From Loktanella sp. PT4BL (lineage in GTDB: Bacteria; Pseudomonadota; Alphaproteobacteria; Rhodobacterales; Rhodobacteraceae), in assembly GCF_003201935.1 (NCBI RefSeq), contig NZ_QJJL01000001.1, positions 917,417 to 981,416 of the forward strand: DNA of 64,000 nt, given 5' to 3'. Below are positions 47,179 through 59,469 of the stretch, piece after piece. How positions within the stretch are numbered: the first letter of the stretch is position 1; each line of letters opens with the position of its first letter. Below the pieces are notes generated by a model that saw nothing but the letters and a program-made list of their open reading frames with translations, did not search any database and was not told the origin of the DNA. The translations under genes and the position numbers were made by a program.

Positions 47179-49407
47179 TCACTCCAAGATGACGTAGAGT
47201 GCGTCGTCGGGCAGGAACAAACTCAGTATCCCGTTGCTTCTTGAAACTGTGATGTCACGGGTCGCCATGCCATTGGCATCCAAGGCTGTCGCACGTGAGA
47301 GCCTCTCGTTTCGAATACTCACCTGAGCCTGAACCCGGTCAATCTGCCATGGCGCCTCGCCAAAGGCAGTCACTGCCAAAGCGGGCCCGCTTTCGTGTTG
47401 CGCAGGCTCCGCGCTCCAGCCTGTCGGGCGTGCGATGCTGTTGATCTGCACCAATAGCCGTGCCGCATCAGCAATCGGCTGGCCATCGAGCGGCACCGCG
47501 ATGATACTGGCATAGTCTGCATCGCTTTCAATCGTGATGTCCTGCAAGGCAAAGGTCGTGGCCGATGACAAAGCGCCGACAACGCCTTGCGCGCGGGGCG
47601 CATCAAGTGTGACGACACCCGCACCCCAATCCCAGGACAGCTCGCGCGTCAGACTGGTGACAACCTGCCTGTCTTCGTCGATCAGCGATGCAAGATCAGG
47701 GTGCACGAAATTTCCAGTCTCGCTGTCAAAATCGACCTGAACGGGGCCGGCAAGGAAGCTATAGGGGCTGATGTCGGGTTGTCGCGCGCCGCTACTTCCA
47801 AGCAATGCACCAAAAATGCCTGTATCGCGGTTCGGGTCATAGCCTTGTTGCGCCGCAACAAGAGGGGCCGCGCGGGCCCAGAGCGTGTCGCGCGGGCGGC
47901 GTTCGATCACGACCGGAGGGGCCTCGTCAATGAGCCCAAGGCGAAAGATCAGTGCAGCCGCGGGAAAAGCGCCCATCTGTTGCGGGGTTGCGAGCTGCCA
48001 TTTGCCGATACTTGGCAAATAGCCGTTCGCACTTTGCGGTGCGCGCCATTGTGTTTCACCTGTGGCAAACCAATAGCTGACGTCGATGCCGGTCAGGGCC
48101 TGATAGGCCGCCATCAGAACAGGCCCCTCTGATTGTTCCCACATCGGCGGCACCCAAAGCGTTTCGCCGATAATGTAGGGATAACCGACTGGCTGGCGCA
48201 GTGTGATGGGCAGATCCAAAGGCCGGCGCAGCAAACCGTCTTCGCGGTATTTGTCACCTGCCACAATGGCCCAGCCTTCATATTCGCCTTCGTGGAGGCC
48301 GGTGACATAGCGGTTCACGCCGATCACATCGCCCGCCGTGTAGGCGTACCGCTCAAGATCATCGAGGAGAACGTCATCCGCCGTGCGCCAGTTGCCTGCG
48401 TTGAAAAGTTGCGGTGCGCCAATGTCTTCGCGCAGGAAGCGGGCAATCTCGGCGTGCCAGTCGCGCATGATCATGGTCAGGAATTCTGTTTGATCGGCCA
48501 GTCGCGCTACTGCTTCGCCCGGGTCTGCATCGCGTGTCAGGTGCCAGATATTGGAAAGTGCGATCACGCCACTGTCCCAATCGTCGCGCATGTCGGCAAT
48601 CGGACCGGGCACCGCAGCATTGCCCCACGCATCCCGCGCTGCGGCCAGCGAACCGTATTTTTCGACAAGGAATTGGCCAAAACGGGCGCCAAGCAGTGCG
48701 GCCTCGCGGCCCTTGATGTTGTTGAAGGTCCAGAAAAGAAGCGAATCCTCGTTCTGCATCTGGATGATTGCGAGCGCAGGATCGTCCTTGAGTGCCAGAC
48801 CGGTGTACGGGTTTACGGGCAGCAGTGTCTCGCGGAGCCACCCCTTGTAGGCCTCTTGCAAGACCGGATCAAAATAGATCATCCCCGTCAGCCCCTCACT
48901 GTCGACGGGGACTTGCCAGCGCCAGGCGGCCTCTGGATGCACAAGGTGCGGATAGTAGGGGCTGAAGGTGACGTAGATACCTTCCTGTTTCATCGCGGCG
49001 ACCAGCTGCCAGAGCTGGTCGCGTTCGGTTGTGTCTATTTCTTCAAGCGTGCCACCTGATTGTCCGGCTTGCGGGATTTGCCCGTGCAGGCGCACCATGT
49101 TGACGCCGCGTTTGGCCAGAAAGCGGGCGTGGTCTTCGAGTGCTGCCATACCATTACGGGCGGCATAGCTATTCAGCGCCCAGAACCGGATCGGCGCCCC
49201 GTCACCCCGCACAAAAGCGGCCCCATCGTCCGAACGCCGGATGAAGCCGGTTTCACCTGCGATCGCTTCGTTCAGATAAGAAAGATCAAGCAGTGCCGCG
49301 TCGGAGAATCCGTCTTGTCCCGGTTGGAAATCCCATGTTGCGGGGGTGTCTGCGACAGCAGGGGCCCAAAGCAGCCCTGCAAGCAGCGCGATGCATTGTC
49401 GTTTCAT
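47179..49407 (-). CDS. Secreted glycoside-hydrolase-like protein (clan GH-A TIM barrel)
   Basis: A 742-residue exported protein. Signal peptide MKRQCIALLAGLLWAPAVA, then a (beta/alpha)8-like domain: FWALNSYAARNG near residue 68, VNMVRLHGQIPQ near residue 97, and IIQMQNEDSLLFW near residue 212 with the Asn-Glu typical of the acid/base residue in clan GH-A, and IIGETLWVPP near residue 402 with a candidate nucleophile Glu. The C-terminal third is beta-rich. It resembles GH5/GH42-like enzymes, but the family and substrate are not certain. Tail to tail with the cyanate operon. Confidence 0.78.
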   Translation of the reverse strand: MKRQCIALLAGLLWAPAVADTPATWDFQPGQDGFSDAALLDLSYLNEAIAGETGFIRRSDDGAAFVRGDGAPIRFWALNSYAARNGMAALEDHARFLAKRGVNMVRLHGQIPQAGQSGGTLEEIDTTERDQLWQLVAAMKQEGIYVTFSPYYPHLVHPEAAWRWQVPVDSEGLTGMIYFDPVLQEAYKGWLRETLLPVNPYTGLALKDDPALAIIQMQNEDSLLFWTFNNIKGREAALLGARFGQFLVEKYGSLAAARDAWGNAAVPGPIADMRDDWDSGVIALSNIWHLTRDADPGEAVARLADQTEFLTMIMRDWHAEIARFLREDIGAPQLFNAGNWRTADDVLLDDLERYAYTAGDVIGVNRYVTGLHEGEYEGWAIVAGDKYREDGLLRRPLDLPITLRQPVGYPYIIGETLWVPPMWEQSEGPVLMAAYQALTGIDVSYWFATGETQWRAPQSANGYLPSIGKWQLATPQQMGAFPAAALIFRLGLIDEAPPVVIERRPRDTLWARAAPLVAAQQGYDPNRDTGIFGALLGSSGARQPDISPYSFLAGPVQVDFDSETGNFVHPDLASLIDEDRQVVTSLTRELSWDWGAGVVTLDAPRAQGVVGALSSATTFALQDITIESDADYASIIAVPLDGQPIADAARLLVQINSIARPTGWSAEPAQHESGPALAVTAFGEAPWQIDRVQAQVSIRNERLSRATALDANGMATRDITVSRSNGILSLFLPDDALYVILE

Positions 49408-50087
49408 GGCTGAGCCTTCTCTTTGCCGCAGTCGCTTCGAGACTAGCGCCAATCGGGTCGCGCGGATAGCTGGCAGTGTAGTAATCCGCAGGTCGCGGGC
49501 GATGCCAGATTGCCTTGTCCGGCGATATGATAGCCGAATCGCAAGGGTTGATTTTGGGATGCTCTGCGCGGGCCATGCAAACAAAGTACACCAAAGACGC
49601 GATTCTCTTGGTCGTCCCTCGGCTTATCAGACCAATTCTGGTGATGCTTTCGTCATTATGACGATTCTGCGATCTGTTTTATGTCATTGCTGTTGACGTA
49701 AATATCTCGGTGCGAGGGGATGACGGAGCAAGGCGACAACATTATCAGGAGCAGCTTATATTTCTATTATCTTATCAATATCAATTACTTATATCTTGCC
49801 GCTTTGCGGGGCAAAGGTCTGCTTTCGAGGTGCAAGAGAATATGTGAAAATCGCTTTTTGCGTGTGGCGGCTAAAAAGGACACCGTTTCATCCAATTTTT
49901 GCCGCAATCGAACAGCAACTTAAAACCAATCGTACCTCACCACGGTTACACCCACTTGTTTACTACTCACAGCGAGACGCTGCCCCGGACGAGGCAGCGT
50001 CTTTTGCTGTGTGGAAATGCTTGTTTTGTAGCGTAAATGAGCGCGATGAATGATGCGGCCAATTCCGAGTTGGCGCGCGTCGCCAGA
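49408..50087. other. AT-rich 680-base gap with an orphan terminator; possible small RNA
   Basis: Between the hydrolase start and the next gene's stop no convincing protein frame exists; a 67-codon frame at 49720 has a poorly spaced ribosome site and no family look. The DNA is AT-rich from 49730 to 49800. A strong plus-strand terminator ends the gap at 49976-50005, although the nearest upstream plus-strand gene is cynS almost 3 kb away with its own hairpin. A non-coding RNA on the plus strand is the simplest reading. Confidence 0.4.
49976..50005 (+). terminator. Orphan Rho-independent terminator
   Basis: GACGCTGCC pairs perfectly with GGCAGCGTC around an 8-base loop and is followed by TTTT. 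No plus-strand gene lies directly upstream. Confidence 0.8.
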
Positions 50088-50846
50088 TTATCCGGTTGAA
50101 TTGATTGATGTGACAGACATATGGACTGAAGAAACCTGATCAGTTCTACACAATGAACGGACGTCTCGCGCAAGTATGTTCTTGATATCGTTTGCATTCA
50201 TCCAGATCAGATAATCTTCATCGGTCACTTGTCGGTCCGGTCCAATCCATCTTCCGGGCTCGCAATGGCTATAACCATATCGTAAGTGTGCGCCCTTGGC
50301 TGCGAGTTGTTTGGGAACCAGTGCAAAAACGAAGTCGGGCTGCCATGTTCGTTGCAAAACTTCAAACAGCAAACGCGACAATAGCCCGGTCGCACCTTGG
50401 CTGCGCGGCCCGCCTAGCCCGCGCGAGGGGAGCCAGAAATCACCGCAATAGCCGACCTTACCAGTCACCATCTTGAGCGCTTCAGGTCCTTGGTAAAATG
50501 TTAGATCAGGATCCGGGGTCGTATCAGGGGTGATATATTTATGGCGGTGTATATCCAAATGCTTGCCAAGTGACATCTTGGTAAGGTCCAGCAACCGCAC
50601 GGCCTGCGTGTGCACCAGTTCATCATCATCATTGAAACCACAAATCCAAAAACCGTTTGTTTCATCGATGAACGAACTCGCTGTGTCGAAGATTGGATAC
50701 AAACCGCCGCGACCTGAACATGAGTTCCGATAATATCGGTAGAGTGAAAAATCATCACCGACTTCAATGCGCATTCCCAGGCTTTCAAGCTCTTGGATAA
50801 TGCGCGACACATTCATTATCATGCCAAAAATACTGCGCGCCGACAT
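50088..50846 (-). CDS. Unknown protein, possible GNAT/autoinducer-synthase-like fold
   Basis: A 252-residue soluble protein. NGFWICGFNDDDELVHTQAV near residue 63 reads like a central GNAT-type strand pair (as in acyl-homoserine-lactone synthases, where the next strand carries RLL), and VRLLDL follows directly. The conserved N-terminal Arg/Trp/Asp set of LuxI proteins is not seen, so it is not called one. The second half (GDFWLPSRGLGGPRSQG) is unfamiliar. It is AT-richer than the average of the window and lies just after an unusual LysR-type gene on the same strand. Confidence 0.65.
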   Translation of the reverse strand: MSARSIFGMIMNVSRIIQELESLGMRIEVGDDFSLYRYYRNSCSGRGGLYPIFDTASSFIDETNGFWICGFNDDDELVHTQAVRLLDLTKMSLGKHLDIHRHKYITPDTTPDPDLTFYQGPEALKMVTGKVGYCGDFWLPSRGLGGPRSQGATGLLSRLLFEVLQRTWQPDFVFALVPKQLAAKGAHLRYGYSHCEPGRWIGPDRQVTDEDYLIWMNANDIKNILARDVRSLCRTDQVSSVHMSVTSINSTG

Positions 50847-50930: not shown

Positions 50931-51869
50931 TCACAATATCGAGTGTGATGCTTTCCGTGGTTGTGGCAATTGAGTCACTGAGTTGGAAAGCGCAGGCAGG
51001 GTATCCATGATCATATCTGCATCAATTTTCGGGCGATCAGCTTCGGACAAAGCGTCAATCTCAACCTGCTCAGTGATAGATGCCATCAATATCAGTCCGG
51101 GTGTACCGTCGGGGAACACCCCCCCCAGAAGTAGTCTTTGGAATGTTCCAGGATGAGGTTGGCCGCCGTCCTTTGGCAGATGTGCGAAGATGTGATCAAG
51201 GCGCACGCCACCCTCTTCGTAGATCCTTGAGTATGCACCACCGATGAATTCGTTATATTCGTCGCCAACATTGTCTTCATTTATGAGTTTTCCGATGGCG
51301 CTGCTCGCCCAGGTCCAACCAAACCAGCGTGCATAGGCCGATTCCTTCCCGACGTGGACAAAGACCCATCCCGCTGGCACCTTTCGAAAGAGTACCATAT
51401 AGGGCCGAATTTCGTCCATCGCTTCATGTTCGATCTGTGTTTTTGCATTTCCCCAAGCCATCAGAGCACTCTTCATCAGAGGCAGGCCATTTATGGCTAT
51501 CTGTGAAACTGGATGCTGTTGCGAATGAAAAGACCTGCCTTCCTTGTCAGTATATTCTAGTTTTTCAAGTCCGGCCTTAGTCTTCTTTGTCAAGGCAGAC
51601 TGTCCTGCCCATGAGTCCAACTGCAAAATCAGTTTTTGGGCTTCCTCGATTCTTTCAGACCCTTCCGGCGTCAGCTCGTACTGACGATCAACCACCTCGA
51701 AGAGTTTCTGCTCCAGTATCACCTCAAGATCAGTGATGTGTCGCCGGACAGTCTGACGCGTCGTGCCAAGCTCGTCGCTTGCTTTGGACAGATTCAAGTG
51801 TCTGCTTAAGCAAACGAATGCACGTAGCATGTCAACTGTGACGCCAGTGTTGTTCTTCGACTGGTACAA
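50931..51869 (-). CDS. LysR-type regulator with an unusual C-terminal domain
   Basis: A 312-residue protein. Residues 1-75 are a LysR winged helix (DMLRAFVCLSRHLNLSKASDELG and TRQTVRRHITDLEVILEQKLF). The rest does not look like the standard two-lobe periplasmic-binding fold: RPYMVLFRKVPAGWVFVHVG and YARWFGWTWASSAIGKLI are unfamiliar. A TTG start at 51869 is chosen because GGAGG lies 4 bases before it; the ATG at residue 14 has no ribosome site. 84 bases upstream of the gene at 50088-50846 on the same strand, so the two may act together. Confidence 0.72.
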   Translation of the reverse strand: MYQSKNNTGVTVDMLRAFVCLSRHLNLSKASDELGTTRQTVRRHITDLEVILEQKLFEVVDRQYELTPEGSERIEEAQKLILQLDSWAGQSALTKKTKAGLEKLEYTDKEGRSFHSQQHPVSQIAINGLPLMKSALMAWGNAKTQIEHEAMDEIRPYMVLFRKVPAGWVFVHVGKESAYARWFGWTWASSAIGKLINEDNVGDEYNEFIGGAYSRIYEEGGVRLDHIFAHLPKDGGQPHPGTFQRLLLGGVFPDGTPGLILMASITEQVEIDALSEADRPKIDADMIMDTLPALSNSVTQLPQPRKASHSIL

Positions 51870-53131: not shown

Positions 53132-53716
53132 ATGACCCCCACTGACCCCCTTGTTGAGCTAGCCATCAGGTTCATGATCAACGCGACAGCGATGCTCTGC
53201 CTGATGTTCGGCATGTTCTACCGCCGCTATCGCAACAAGGAATTGGCCACCACCGCAGGGATGTTCAACATCTTTGCTTTCTCGGTCCTGACCATTTTGT
53301 CGAGCGTCGCGTTCAGCATCGCGGCCGGGTTTGGTCTGTTTGCAATCCTTGCGCTATTCAGCCTGCGGTCCGAGACCATTTCCAAGGTCGAGATCAGCTA
53401 CTTTTTCGGGTCAATCGCCATCGCGGTCATCTGTTCGGTACTTGGTACGGGGCTGGGACTTGTCGCTTTGATCGTTGTTTTTGTGTTGACCGCGGCGTGG
53501 CTGCTGGATCACCCGCGGATTTTGCAAAGCGCGGATAGTGCCAGGCTGACATTGGACCGGATTGAAGCGCATGTGCTGGCCGACCCCGTCAAAATGCGCC
53601 ACGACCTGTCCGAGCGGCTGGGCGTCGAGGTGATGAATTTCGAAGTGATCGAGTTGAACTATGTCAACGATCTTGCCCGTCTCAATGTTTTTTACCGCAC
53701 AGAAGGAAACGTCTGA
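53132..53716 (+). CDS. DUF4956-family membrane protein
   Basis: A 194-residue protein with four predicted helices in the first 130 residues, then a soluble C-terminal domain (RLTLDRIEAHVLADPVKMRHDL). FALLALFSLRSETISKVEISYFF is split here as LFSLRSETISKVEI and marks DUF4956. The family is often encoded next to VTC-type polyphosphate polymerases, as here, and may form a channel for the product. ATG at 53132 has GAAGGA 8 bases upstream. Stop and next start overlap by one base. Confidence 0.87.
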   Translation: MTPTDPLVELAIRFMINATAMLCLMFGMFYRRYRNKELATTAGMFNIFAFSVLTILSSVAFSIAAGFGLFAILALFSLRSETISKVEISYFFGSIAIAVICSVLGTGLGLVALIVVFVLTAAWLLDHPRILQSADSARLTLDRIEAHVLADPVKMRHDLSERLGVEVMNFEVIELNYVNDLARLNVFYRTEGNV

Positions 53717-54570
53717 TGACCGCGCATATGTCCCAATTCACGCAATCTTTTCGCCCGATCTCGTTGGAGGAATTAAATACCAAAGCCGAGATGATGGCCC
53801 GCATCGACAACAAATATGTGGTGCGTGCCGAGCAGCTCTTTGGCCTTGTCCCACAACTGCGTGAGGCCTTTGATGTACTGGATATCAATACCCGGCGCGC
53901 CTTTGAATATGACACGCGCTATTTCGATGACGCCGGACGCAGCGCCTATTTCGAACACCATCAGGGCAGACGGCGCGGCTTTAAGGTGCGGGTGCGCAAC
54001 TATGTCGATGCGGGCCTGTGCTTTTTGGAAGTGAAGGTCAAAGGCCAGCGCGGCATGACCGAAAAATACCGGATGCCTTACGATATCAACCAGCGCGCAG
54101 CCTTGACGCCGGATGCATCGGAGTTTGCCAAAGGGACCTACAGCCGGCAATACGACAAGGCGTTTGAATATGACCTGCACCCTGCGCTTGATATCCGGTA
54201 CCAGCGTATGACGCTGGTGGCGAAATCTGGCGGCGAGCGGATGACGATCGATACCGATCTGCGGTTTCAGTCCAAGCGCCAGCGCTGTGCGACAGGCACG
54301 GCGGTATTCATTGTTGAAACGAAATCTGCAAATGGGCGTGGCCTCGCCGATCGGTTGCTTCGCATGGCGGGTGAACGCCCGACCAAGCGCTGTTCAAAAT
54401 ACTGTATCGGCATGGCCGCGACCGGCCAGGTTTCACGCTATAATCGCTTTTTACCAACGCTGCGCAAATTGGGGCTGACAGCGCCAAACCCCACAATAGG
54501 AAATTGGTCCGAAATCCGGACCGACCTGCCCACGCATTGGGTGGGTGCCGGACAGGTGGTTGCCGCCTGA
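53716..54570 (+). CDS. VTC-domain polyphosphate polymerase
   Basis: A 284-residue protein with the VTC catalytic domain, an inside-out beta barrel that makes polyphosphate from ATP. RIDNKYVVR near residue 29, FKVRVRNY near residue 94, CFLEVKVKG near residue 106 and EKYRMPY near residue 117 hold the conserved basic and acidic residues lining the tunnel. No SPX domain is present, as in other bacterial forms. It starts 1 base into the stop of the DUF4956 gene, so the two are coupled. A separate PPK2 lies at 6.2-7.0 kb. Confidence 0.88.
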   Translation: MTAHMSQFTQSFRPISLEELNTKAEMMARIDNKYVVRAEQLFGLVPQLREAFDVLDINTRRAFEYDTRYFDDAGRSAYFEHHQGRRRGFKVRVRNYVDAGLCFLEVKVKGQRGMTEKYRMPYDINQRAALTPDASEFAKGTYSRQYDKAFEYDLHPALDIRYQRMTLVAKSGGERMTIDTDLRFQSKRQRCATGTAVFIVETKSANGRGLADRLLRMAGERPTKRCSKYCIGMAATGQVSRYNRFLPTLRKLGLTAPNPTIGNWSEIRTDLPTHWVGAGQVVAA

Positions 54571-54596
54571 TGCAAGATCCAAACAGGAGAGAGACC

Positions 54597-55202
54597 ATGA
54601 CAATTTTTTCGCCAATAGCCGGCAAGATGGCAGGCCTTGTGATGACGGTGATGTTGACGCTTCATGCGGCGCCACTGCAGGCCCAAAGTACTGGAACAGT
54701 CGATTGTGTGATCGCCTCGAATGACGGGCGCAACGGGTTTCGCACTGATGAAATTTCGAACTGCCGCATCAATACGCGGACAGGTGACATCAGCTTTGTT
54801 TTCAAAGACCGTGCGCGCAGCCGGAGCTATGATGCCGTTGAGCCTTTGACCACACGCCATCTTGAAGCGGCGGCTTACTGGGGTGCGCGCGCTGGGCGCT
54901 TTCGCTTTGCGCCGATCACCAACCCCGCTGGCTTTGATCCGCAGGCGTTTCTGAATGCTGCGGCGCAAGCAACGCATGGATTTGTTTTGGTGCGAAACAA
55001 AAAGAACGGCGGACGCGCCCTGAACGTTGTCTACATCACCGATGGCGTCTACCGGTCGATTGATTTTGACGGAACAAACCTGCGTGACATGCCCGAGGGG
55101 CTGCTGACGACACGCGAGCACGCTTTGACATCTCGCCCCCGTCGATTGACAAGACCGATTGCGCCGGTGCGATGTGTCGATGATTGTCAGACCTACGTCT
55201 GA
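54597..55202 (+). CDS. Secreted hypothetical protein of the VTC cluster
   Basis: A 201-residue protein with a signal peptide (MTVMLTLHAAPLQAQ) and a soluble mature part with two paired cysteines at each end (DCVIAS and NCRIN; RCVDDC). No family recognised. RBS GGAG 7 bases before ATG. It starts 26 bases after the polymerase stop, same strand, and its stop leads into the Asp-rich protein gene 79 bases later. It is probably part of the same transcript. Confidence 0.75.
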   Translation: MTIFSPIAGKMAGLVMTVMLTLHAAPLQAQSTGTVDCVIASNDGRNGFRTDEISNCRINTRTGDISFVFKDRARSRSYDAVEPLTTRHLEAAAYWGARAGRFRFAPITNPAGFDPQAFLNAAAQATHGFVLVRNKKNGGRALNVVYITDGVYRSIDFDGTNLRDMPEGLLTTREHALTSRPRRLTRPIAPVRCVDDCQTYV

Positions 55203-55281
55203 TGCCTCACCATCCAAGCAAGGCTATAAAAGGGGCCGGAGCAAGTTTTCCACAATATTCAAGGCGGAACAGACAAGGGCG

Positions 55282-55806
55282 ATGTTGAAGATCATCAAGA
55301 TATTTCTGGCGGCCCTTCTTTTGATGCCGTTTCCGATTGTGAGTGTGCAGCAGCAAGACGGCAAATGGGTTTTTGCTGTCGATTACGCGCGTGCAAGTGA
55401 CGACGATGGCGATGATGACGACGACGATGACGACGATGACGACGACGATGACGATGACGACGATGACGATGACGACGATGATGATGATGACGAAGACGAC
55501 GATGCTGATGACGAAGACGACGACGAAGATGATGACGACGACGATGACGATGACCGCGGTGGCAGTCGCGGCGATGAAGACGATGAAGGAAACGGCTTTG
55601 GCACGAATAGCGGCAGTTCGGAAAACGGTGCTTCAGATCGCGGCCGGGCGACACCTGAGAACCTGCACTTGCGCTATCCAAATGGGTGGGACGAAAAGAT
55701 CAGGGATGGGCGCTACATTTTGACGGACCCCAATGGCGCAACAGTCGTCAACCGTCGGGCCACTTTTGACGATCTCGACCGCATGCGCGACGCAGCGGGA
55801 CTTTAG
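55282..55806 (+). CDS. Secreted Asp-rich protein (27 consecutive Asp)
   Basis: A 174-residue exported protein. Signal helix residues 1-25, then from about residue 40 to 90 a nearly pure Asp/Glu tract: 27 uninterrupted Asp codons (55411-55491), then shorter Asp runs with Glu and Ala. The C-terminal 60 residues (ENLHLRYPNGWDEKIRDGRY, split as LHLRYPNGWDEKI) form a small basic-acidic domain found in several uncharacterised proteins. Such tracts bind Ca2+ and can act in biomineral or matrix proteins. Last gene of the VTC cluster. Confidence 0.8.
   Translation: MLKIIKIFLAALLLMPFPIVSVQQQDGKWVFAVDYARASDDDGDDDDDDDDDDDDDDDDDDDDDDDDDDDEDDDADDEDDDEDDDDDDDDDRGGSRGDEDDEGNGFGTNSGSSENGASDRGRATPENLHLRYPNGWDEKIRDGRYILTDPNGATVVNRRATFDDLDRMRDAAGL
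55411..55491 (+). repeat. GAY27 codon tract encoding polyaspartate
   Basis: Twenty-seven GAC/GAT codons in a row. The mixed third base limits pure slippage, yet the tract is long enough to vary in length. The wider acidic region spans about 55399-55551. Confidence 0.9.
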
Positions 55807-55816
55807 GCTCAGGACC

Positions 55817-56461
55817 CTAAGACTGGCTCTTGCCCCAGGCCTCTTGTGCAATGAGCGCCGCTTCCACGCGATTTCGGGCCTGAAGTTTGCCAAGGATGAT
55901 CGTCATATAATGTTTGACGGTCTTTTCCTGTATATTGAGCTCTGAACCTATTTCCTTGTTGCTCTTCCCGACAGCAACGCCGCGCAGGATATCTTCTTCG
56001 CGCTTTGTCAGTTCGTCGATGGGTTGCCGCGGAGGTTTGGTCTCATTTTGCATCACCCGCAGCATTTGCGCCGCCAACCCGGGCGAGACATGGGCCTCGC
56101 CGCGCGCGATCTTGCCCAATACCTCGCGCAGTTCACTGGCAGAAACACCTTTCAGAAGATATCCCATCGCACCTGCTTGCATTGCGGCTGTTACATCATT
56201 GCTGTCTTCTGACACTGTCAGCATTGCGATCGCCCCGGCGGAGCCCGCATCGCTGATCCGCTGTGCCGCCGTGATGCCGTTGCCCGGCATTGAAAGGTCC
56301 AGCAAGGCAATGTCCGGTTTGTACTGAAAAGCCAGCGCCACAGCTTCATCTGCGGAACCACCTACGCCAACCACCTCGAATTCACCGGTTTCTTCGATGC
56401 TGTTGACCAACCCCTCACGAAAGATCGGGTGATCATCTGCGAGAATAATGCGAATAGTCAT
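55817..56461 (-). CDS. NarL/FixJ-type response regulator
   Basis: A 214-residue regulator. Receiver domain with DD at residues 9-10 and phosphoacceptor Asp55 (IALLDLSMPG), Lys near residue 104 (YLLKGVSAS). LuxR-type helix-turn-helix near residue 152 (LTKREEDILRGVAVGKSNKEI, split LTKREEDIL and GKSNKEI). Its ATG overlaps the stop of the kinase gene by 4 bases, so the pair is co-made. Tail to tail with the VTC cluster. Confidence 0.9.
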   Translation of the reverse strand: MTIRIILADDHPIFREGLVNSIEETGEFEVVGVGGSADEAVALAFQYKPDIALLDLSMPGNGITAAQRISDAGSAGAIAMLTVSEDSNDVTAAMQAGAMGYLLKGVSASELREVLGKIARGEAHVSPGLAAQMLRVMQNETKPPRQPIDELTKREEDILRGVAVGKSNKEIGSELNIQEKTVKHYMTIILGKLQARNRVEAALIAQEAWGKSQS

Positions 56462-57858
56462 AATATGTTCTCTTCAAATGGCAGTGTGAGTATCAGGTTC
56501 GTGCCGCCCGCAGGCGTCGAAGAAATTTCCAACTGCCCGCCGATGCTCTCGGCACGGTCGGTCAGGCTGAAAAGGCCTTGACCGCCATCATCCCGGATTT
56601 GGCGGGTTTTTGCGGTGTCAAATCCCTGACCAGCGTCAGCGACAGTAATCGATAGTGAATGATCTGTGGCATCAACCGTGATCATCGCGTTGTTTACACC
56701 CGCGTGTCGGCTGATGTTCGAGAGTGTTTCTTGCAGAAAACGAAAGACGCAAAGCTTTTGCGCGTAGTTCAGTCGTACGATCTGGTCGTCATGCCGCGCG
56801 ACGGTGATCTTCAAATCGGTCTGGCGGGTGTGGTCTTTGACGGCCCGGTTGATCAGCGCGTCAATCTCAAGGTTGTCAAGATCCGGCAAAGCGAGCCCCC
56901 GCGAAATGATCCGCAACTCATCGAGGGCCATATCAAGGGATTTGCGTACCAGCGGAGCATCAGTTGTGGGCGTACTTTGATTGCCCAATGCACTATCCAG
57001 TCGCAGTGATGCCAAGGACAGATATTGGGCGGGGCCGTCATGCAGGTCGGAGCCGATCCTGCGGATGGCGCGCTCTGTCTGGGCGGTGGCACGCGCTGAT
57101 GCGGCAACAGCCTTGCGGCGAAGATCGGCGTTTTGGGCAGACATTCGCTGTGTCTTATCCAGTTGTTCGCGCAATTCGGCCCGTTGCCTGCGAATAGTCC
57201 GCCCCCCGGTTTGGACGATCCCGAACAACAGCACACCACTTGCCAAAAAGGCGCCGCCAACGATGAGCCAGCTGGTCCGATGCGCCTGCGTGATATCACT
57301 GTTGAGCACCGTCGCGTCTTCATAGAACTCGGCCACAGCGATGACGTCCCCCGACCAGCTTTGACGGATCGGACTGTAATACTCCAGCAAGGGGACCCCC
57401 AATGCGGCCTCGGCGGCATCTTCCAGACTATTGAGGTCCGAAAACGCGGCTGCGATCTCGCCTTGCCATGCGCGCCGCAGGTCTTCTGAGGGTTCAAAGA
57501 CCTGTCCAATCAGCGCAGGGTCCGAGGCATGGATGATCCGTCCGTCCTCGGCCCAGATTTTGAAAGACACAACACGCTCCCCCAGCGCAGTGCCTTCAAA
57601 TATTTCTGCCAGCGCCTGCCTTGCGGGTGGCGACAGAGTATCGGTTTCCGCCAATTCCTGACTGAGGGGCGAGATAAAGCTTTCCATGTACAAAGCTGCA
57701 GAGATTGCGGAATTCTGAACCACCGCATTCTCGATCTGTCGCGAAACCCACATCTCGACAAAGAAGGTCGCAATGACCATGACAGCCGCTCCGGCCAATA
57801 GAAATTGGCCAGGCAACGTCAGACTCTGCCAACGCCACGTATTTCGCACGATACTCAT
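56458..57858 (-). CDS. Membrane sensor histidine kinase (HisKA_3)
   Basis: A 466-residue kinase. Two helices (residues 14-36 and about 195-215) bracket a periplasmic domain of about 160 residues. DLHDGPAQYLSLASLRLD near residue 274 holds the phosphorylated His, and DAGQGFDTAKTR plus GGQGLFSLTDRAESIGG form the ATP-binding site of HPK7-type kinases. Partner is the adjacent NarL-type regulator. The signal is unknown; the VTC cluster next door is a possible target. Confidence 0.9.
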   Translation of the reverse strand: MSIVRNTWRWQSLTLPGQFLLAGAAVMVIATFFVEMWVSRQIENAVVQNSAISAALYMESFISPLSQELAETDTLSPPARQALAEIFEGTALGERVVSFKIWAEDGRIIHASDPALIGQVFEPSEDLRRAWQGEIAAAFSDLNSLEDAAEAALGVPLLEYYSPIRQSWSGDVIAVAEFYEDATVLNSDITQAHRTSWLIVGGAFLASGVLLFGIVQTGGRTIRRQRAELREQLDKTQRMSAQNADLRRKAVAASARATAQTERAIRRIGSDLHDGPAQYLSLASLRLDSALGNQSTPTTDAPLVRKSLDMALDELRIISRGLALPDLDNLEIDALINRAVKDHTRQTDLKITVARHDDQIVRLNYAQKLCVFRFLQETLSNISRHAGVNNAMITVDATDHSLSITVADAGQGFDTAKTRQIRDDGGQGLFSLTDRAESIGGQLEISSTPAGGTNLILTLPFEENIL

Positions 57859-59082: not shown

Positions 59083-59469
59083 ATGACGAAATCAAATCTG
59101 TTCACCGGTGTGAGTGTCGGCGCAATGATCCTGCTGGCTGCCTGCGCGCCGAAACCGGAACCCGTGGCGATGGTGATCTATGCCGAGCCGACTTTCGACA
59201 AACTGGGCAATCCGTCCTGCCGTCCGGGCAACGTTCCGATTGGTGGCGTTTACACGGCAGACCTGCCTTTGTGTGATGTGATCAACAGCGGCCAGGCTGT
59301 GGTTGTTGCCCCGCGCATTGTCGAACTTGATGATGGTGTTGATGGGACGGTCATTGTCGATCCGGTTGATCCGATCGATCCTAGTGGCGGCAATCAGAAC
59401 CAGAACCAGAACCAGAACCAAAACGAGAACCAGAACCAGAATGAAAACCAGAACCAATCTGGCACTTGA
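59083..59469 (+). CDS. Lipoprotein with C-terminal Asn-Gln repeats
   Basis: A 128-residue lipoprotein. LLAAC lipobox ends at Cys21. The middle part has two cysteines (NPSCRPG and LPLCDV) and the tail is a run of Asn-Gln pairs with two Glu (residues 104-125). The tail is encoded by hexanucleotide AACCAG repeats. No function recognised; possibly a surface adhesin-like or flexible linker tail. RBS AAGGA upstream. Confidence 0.75.
   Translation: MTKSNLFTGVSVGAMILLAACAPKPEPVAMVIYAEPTFDKLGNPSCRPGNVPIGGVYTADLPLCDVINSGQAVVVAPRIVELDDGVDGTVIVDPVDPIDPSGGNQNQNQNQNQNENQNQNENQNQSGT
59392..59457 (+). repeat. Hexanucleotide repeat encoding Asn-Gln tail
   Basis: AACCAG-type units with occasional changes (AACCAA, AACGAG, AATGAA), 11 dipeptide codon pairs in total. 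Such a tract can change length by slippage. Confidence 0.85.

Follow-up and report, generated by a model that had tools for sequence, protein, structure and literature searches.

The window analysed here is a 64,000-nucleotide stretch of Loktanella sp. PT4BL (contig NZ_QJJL01000001.1, positions 917,417 to 981,416), whose genome comprises 3.92 Mb in 36 contigs, and the subject is a predicted polyphosphate locus around a VTC-domain protein. Four genes on the + strand (53132-55806), seen in the open reading frame (ORF) calls and in the sequence, encode DUF4956, VTC and two proteins that we call G3 and G4. Base 53716 is common to DUF4956 (53132-53716) and VTC (53716-54570), G3 starts 27 bases after the VTC stop (54570 to 54597), and about 80 bases lie between the G3 stop and the G4 start (55202 to 55282). 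A NarL-type response regulator and a HisKA_3-type kinase lie downstream, convergent to G4, with the stops of G4 and the regulator 10 bases apart. An initial sequence-only reading had described the one-base overlap, the two same-strand genes that follow and a run of 27 Asp, and these were borne out by the ORFs and the sequence. The features of the locus are the following:

53132..53716, + strand: DUF4956 membrane protein, 194 aa, about five hydrophobic segments (PF16316, E 1.9e-43; hydropathy; adjoins VTC in 44/44 VTC loci)
53716..54570, + strand: VTC-domain (triphosphate-tunnel) polyphosphate polymerase homologue, 284 aa, without a hydrophobic segment of its own (PF09359, E 9.3e-31; structure model; invariant active-site positions)
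54597..55202, + strand: G3, 201 aa, signal-peptide-like start, mature part predicted mostly beta, unnamed family (homologues in loci L015, L075 (=L005), L006 and L008; predicted local distance difference test score (pLDDT) of the model 83.3)
55282..55806, + strand: G4, 174 aa, predicted exported protein with hydrophobic N-terminus, Asp tract and conserved C-terminal domain (alignment, composition, hydropathy)
55399..55554, + strand: Asp-coding imperfect tandem repeat in G4, periods 6 to 24 (repeat scan; contains the 27-Asp run, 55411-55491)
55654..55803, + strand: C-terminal domain of G4, of the NGWxExIxxGxYxLxDPxGRTVxxRxATxxDxxR type, the part kept in relatives (alignment, 12 sequences)
55817..56461, - strand: NarL/LuxR-type response regulator, tail-to-tail with G4 (PF00072 and PF00196)
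56458..57858, - strand: HisKA_3-type sensor histidine kinase (PF07730, PF02518; conserved with the regulator)

The VTC-DUF4956 pair named in that reading proved real. The VTC protein scored 107.6 bits against PF09359 (Pfam cut-off 23), and DUF4956 scored 148.6 bits against PF16316 (cut-off 30.6). The structure model of VTC reached a pLDDT of 85.1 and its best fold matches in the PDB were Vtc4 tunnel domains, which places it in the tunnel fold; a sequence search of the PDB gave no match at the thresholds used, and the likeness came from fold comparison alone. Residues K33, R92, R94, E105, K107, K109, R164, E201, K203 and K228 were invariant among 16 aligned sequences. We take K200, R264, R266, K281, R361, E426 and K455 to be the equivalent yeast positions, which is consistent with the fold-aligned ranges, the residue-level match being our assumption. 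By Pfam and hydropathy the 284-residue chain carried PF09359 only, with neither an SPX domain nor a hydrophobic segment, and is thus not of the eukaryotic type. These results indicate that VTC is a homologue of tunnel-type polyphosphate polymerases and is always paired with the membrane protein DUF4956, which adjoined it in all 44 VTC loci compared. PPK1 was also present in the window's genome and in 53 of 56 genomes of the genus, including all 11 with VTC. VTC is therefore an additional polymerase, because the same cell already has PPK1.

The 44 loci comprised those of a VTC-based scan of genome contigs (34 loci, chosen regardless of G3 or G4) and VTC genomes from a whole-genome search, after 10 duplicates, such as L004=L015, L005=L075 and L012=L070, had been removed. 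A tree of VTC plus DUF4956 was built from 42 of them, leaving out L022 and L038; L037 and L038 are identical VTC proteins of one genome. The tree contained one clade of 17 VTC loci, including the window, with a support of 1.0, in which identity to the window's VTC went down to about 51 percent. The C-terminal domain of G4 was found in 14 of the 17 clade loci, and kinase and regulator of the window's type were both found in 15, among them L014, where the contig end cuts off the kinase; L018 had the kinase only. None of the other 27 VTC loci had a G4 domain or a window-type kinase or regulator above 100 bits. The sequence-only reading had expected the exported genes to be kept beside VTC, which held for G4, G3 being kept in 5 of 17 loci; the neighbouring NarL-type pair, which it had proposed as a possible regulator, turned out to be part of the conserved unit, with the kinase alone adding one more locus. 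Judged from this conservation, the exported genes at the VTC locus appear not to be bystanders.

Wherever the clade had G4 (14 loci), this gene was tail-to-tail with the regulator, with stops -4 to +62 bases apart, and the window carries the complete G4-type triad, namely the C-terminal domain, the tail-to-tail regulator and the kinase. The kinase has two hydrophobic segments (20-38 and 197-215) flanking about 160 residues. Relative to VTC, the block was oriented as in the window in 11 loci and inverted in L012, L016 and L017, and its occurrence in both orientations points to function more than to a frozen operon. Full convergent triads without VTC in the stretch examined were present in L062, L063 and L064. 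Among plasmid records, 4 of 32 with a G4-domain match and 6 of 16 with VTC (one without annotation) were examined: a Rhizobium plasmid (L087) had the triad without VTC, with stops 9 bases apart, and a Rhizobiaceae plasmid (L090) had it with a DUF1236 gene between. In Ruegeria (L089), the G4 domain was accompanied by a kinase of the window's type about 4 kb off, with other genes between. Because the triad occurs without VTC in other genomes and plasmids, it is an older unit acquired by one VTC clade, and G4 belongs first to its two-component system. Two further observations concern these neighbourhoods. A small protein of the DUF1236 type that looks exported and has a glycine zipper is encoded beside the triad on the Rhizobiaceae plasmids (L087 8480-8872, L090 6871-7272), and a porin (PF13609, L013 8919-9770) directly follows VTC in L013, the sole long-contig clade locus without the triad.

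In an unselected draw from the family (149 genomes, one per genus), the G4 domain was found in 12 genomes and VTC in 5. G4 lay at most 5 kb from VTC in 4 of the 5 VTC genomes, and in the fifth, which is incomplete, the contig that carries VTC is 10.8 kb long; two of the four linked genomes (G003 and G055) were not among the search-profile sequences. Eight G4-positive genomes had no VTC. Three of these have the full convergent triad (L062-L064), L065 has a weaker regulator match convergent to G4, L067 has an adjacent two-component pair on the same strand, and in L066, L068 and L073 there is no window-type regulator next to G4. Within the genus, VTC was present in 11 of 56 genomes and G4 in 3, and all three G4 genes lay beside VTC.

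G4 contains 60 Asp in 174 residues, with a hydrophobic segment at residues 4-22 and the 27-Asp run at residues 44-70 (bases 55411-55491), and the next longest Asp run among the window's 268 stop-to-stop ORFs of at least 100 residues was 3. In the fetched loci, an Asp run of at least 5 occurred in 14 of 2,977 stop-to-stop ORFs, some loci overlapping and all having been chosen around VTC or G4, so that the ORFs elsewhere in them serve as the control. Eight of the 14 were G4-type, 5 were EF-hand/poly-Asp proteins and 1 was unrelated (L072). The Asp tract, put forward at the outset as the notable feature of the protein, did not hold up as a conserved one; the conserved part of G4 is the C-terminal domain, with invariant G, W, E, I, R, D and R in the 12-sequence alignment. 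The tract was Asp-rich in the nearest relatives in the clade (L075, L006, L015, L007 and L008; 20-34 percent Asp) and Gly/Ser/Asn-rich further out (L009 and L011; 4-5 percent Asp). As a conserved core it was ruled out, since G4 homologues range from a 35-Asp run (L075) to Gly/Ser-rich.

Asp codons alternated near-perfectly between GAC and GAT in L006 (14 codon runs in 14 codons), L007 (19 in 21) and L082 (21 in 22), the pattern that slippage of a hexamer would produce. The run of the window was irregular, with 16 codon runs against 14.3 expected, and nonetheless scored as an imperfect tandem repeat. In-frame slippage, combined with selection that keeps the linker acidic or hydrophilic, is probably the best explanation of the tract. 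G4 proteins without VTC were also Asp-rich, and the acidity is therefore not tied to polyphosphate. No EF-hand family of Pfam matched G4, with E values up to 1 considered. About 3.3 kb from G4, a lipoprotein-like ORF of 128 aa (59083-59469, + strand) encodes another protein of low complexity that looks exported; it has no Pfam match, and its end consists of an Asn-Gln/Glu repeat, which a (CAGAAC)n tandem repeat encodes.

Neither G3 nor G4 matched a Pfam or NCBIfam family above cut-off. The signal peptide of G3 was judged by inspection, as no 19-residue window reached the hydropathy cut-off, and the G3 model matched known folds, lipocalin/calycin included, at background level only. G3 was present in the window, L075, L015, L006 and L008, and in L008 it was placed upstream of DUF4956. 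Because of this placement and its absence from 12 of the 17 clade loci, the two exported genes are separable. The three genus genomes (of 56) with G3 were the same three as those with G4, and all had it beside VTC.

Outside the clade, VTC has other neighbours. Seven of the 27 non-clade VTC loci (six genomes) and clade locus L010 encode a protein that looks exported, contains two EF-hand motifs and has an Asp-rich tail; in L021 and L029 its gene lies about 8 kb from VTC, within a conserved gene string. At six of its loci the gene was accompanied by genes for an OmpR-type two-component pair, for a CydC-like ABC protein and for a protein of 384 residues. A kinase or regulator of that OmpR type occurred at 13 of the 27 non-clade loci. 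A PiT phosphate transporter followed VTC after 19-67 bases in L024, L032, L069 and L084 and after 31 bases in Nitratireductor, and L028 had a Na/Pi transporter at the VTC locus. On Hyphomicrobiales plasmids (L091-L094), a phytase-like protein was found downstream of DUF4956-VTC in 4 of 4 examined, two of them checked against Pfam. Given these EF-hand, PiT and phytase-like neighbours, VTC-DUF4956 has different phosphate- or calcium-related partners by lineage. Sigma factor/anti-sigma and S8 peptidase genes also lie nearby in 3 of the 4 plasmid loci.

For EF-hand linkage, PF13499 was uninformative: ordinary EF-hand proteins were present in 50 of 56 genomes and the VTC-linked ones were missed. 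A profile of the EF-hand/poly-Asp family was therefore used. Its four best matches were the profile's own rows, so that their rank and VTC linkage follow by construction, and the next match lay in the window's genome, unlinked to VTC. Three places (L085 7703-8986, L010 9841-11069 and L063 8413-9992), one of which is in the window's genome, had an exported-looking EF-hand/acidic protein beside a gene of the 2OG-Fe(II) oxygenase type, the only Pfam-checked oxygenase being that of L010. The two genes may form a unit of their own.

By eye, a large secreted-looking ORF elsewhere in the window (47179-49584, - strand) resembles a glycoside hydrolase; Pfam gave no match for it with E values up to 1 considered. 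A 252-aa ORF (50088-50846, - strand), by eye an acyl-homoserine-lactone synthase-type N-acyltransferase, likewise has no Pfam match, and a LysR-type gene (50931-51869, - strand) lies just downstream of it in coordinates. A PADLOC defence-system search with five proteins gave no match.

In the reading that we favour, the locus is an accessory module for polyphosphate, situated at the inner membrane and controlled by a signal; we give this reading about an even chance of being correct. Beyond gene identity, linkage and fold, we infer the following steps. The sensor kinase would read an envelope signal, either divalent cation or phosphate status, and periplasmic G4 would be its accessory or target. 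The acidic tract of G4 may bind cations with low affinity, its length drifting freely, and the C-terminal domain would make the specific contact. The regulator would control VTC-DUF4956, which would make polyphosphate on the cytoplasmic side and pass it by way of DUF4956 into the membrane or across it, and the resulting pool would be distinct from that of PPK1. G3 would be a lineage-specific periplasmic accessory.

Several results weigh against this reading. In a draw from the order (390 genomes), G4 was found in 25 genomes and VTC in 22, with a first look that scored at most 18 candidates per genome and may have missed some. Co-occurrence was modest, 5 genomes against 1.4 expected, and of these three were linked and two unlinked (G298 and G397). 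No VTC lay within 5 kb in 22 of the 25 G4-positive genomes, 20 having no VTC at all and two carrying it elsewhere, which ruled out G4 as a dedicated VTC partner; most genomes with the G4 domain lack a linked VTC. Because G4 usually occurs without VTC, its chief role may be unrelated to polyphosphate. In the clade itself, no G4 was detected in L013, L014 and L018, the last two being short contigs, and Gly/Ser stands in place of the Asp tract in L009 and L011. Moreover, the locus scan turned up no consensus promoter or regulator site linking the genes; promoter-like sites were at shuffle level (3 against 3.3 in shuffled sequence), and there were 11 terminator-like sites against 6.8 expected.

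The order-draw counts favour a reading in which the triad is an envelope-sensing unit unrelated to VTC and simply its neighbour in one lineage, with G3 incidental. The triads without VTC in other genera and the restriction of G3 to 5 of 17 clade loci fit it as well. We nevertheless consider it unlikely, since linkage in the VTC clade is near-constant, in both orientations and across a divergent set, and G4 lay within 5 kb in four of the five VTC genomes of the unselected family draw. Possible, but not probable in our judgement, is a sharpened version of the calcium-polyphosphate idea put forward in the sequence-only reading, a system in which VTC-DUF4956 exports polyphosphate and exported acidic G4 or EF-hand/poly-Asp proteins bind calcium and hold or shape a periplasmic or surface store. 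It would suit the EF-hand/poly-Asp proteins at non-clade VTC loci and L010, the near confinement of Asp runs of at least 5 to these and the G4-type families (13 of 14) and the phosphate transporters after VTC. However, G4 has no EF-hand or RTX-type motif, clade G4 proteins range from 34 percent Asp (L005/L075) down to 4 percent (L011), and those without VTC are also Asp-rich. The EF-hand/acidic gene of the window's genome lies on a different contig from VTC, which counts against a tight calcium link, and the linkage of the four best EF-hand profile matches was built in. A periplasmic calcium-polyphosphate store would be the stronger claim, no more than compatible with the data. It is very unlikely, in turn, that the VTC-like protein is a tunnel-fold phosphohydrolase or a protein modifier (e.g. 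by lysine polyphosphorylation of acidic tracts) and not a maker of free polyphosphate; for G4, lysine polyphosphorylation was ruled out, as the tract has no lysine.

The accessory module could be extended to a counterpart of the acidocalcisome with the periplasm as lumen. VTC-DUF4956 polyphosphate would then cross the inner membrane, exported poly-Asp or EF-hand/poly-Asp proteins would bind calcium, and two-component systems, NarL-type in one clade and OmpR-type in another, would set the output, so that both groups would follow the same logic with unrelated parts. We regard this extension as rather unlikely. If polyphosphate outside the cytoplasm were under two-component control, it would form a new link of phosphate storage, divalent cations and envelope stress, and the locus would serve in bacteria as a model of the eukaryotic VTC/acidocalcisome system. 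For the question of what role bacterial VTC-type polymerases have in PPK1-bearing cells, the VTC locus provides a compact system: besides a second polymerase and its membrane partner, it contains candidates for the signalling input and for exported partners, and it has relatives in cultured Roseobacter-group bacteria.

Among known systems, the bacterial VTC-DUF4956 pair, annotated as 'polyphosphate polymerase domain-containing protein', has the same two genes in the same order as the window, but the window pair is joined to G3, G4 and the NarL-type pair. In the four Hyphomicrobiales plasmid loci, the phytase-like protein after VTC takes the place of these genes. The G4-type triad elsewhere (L062-L064 and L087) has the same C-terminal domain and the same convergent order, but no VTC in the stretch examined; we know of no published name for such a combination of low-complexity exported protein, NarL-type regulator and kinase. 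The EF-hand/poly-Asp proteins at other VTC loci are, like G4, exported-looking, carry an Asp run and lie beside VTC; unlike G4, they have EF-hands, lack its C-terminal domain and have an ABC transporter and an OmpR-type pair as neighbours. The eukaryotic VTC complex, which is tied to calcium-polyphosphate stores, the acidocalcisomes, shares with the window's VTC the tunnel-domain fold of Vtc4 and conserved active-site positions, and in both the polymerase is coupled to a membrane protein, a Vtc1-type domain there and DUF4956 here. It differs in that the window's VTC has neither SPX nor a membrane segment, the separate DUF4956 filling the membrane role, and where the eukaryotic complex is controlled through SPX, the window has a two-component pair and an exported acidic protein.

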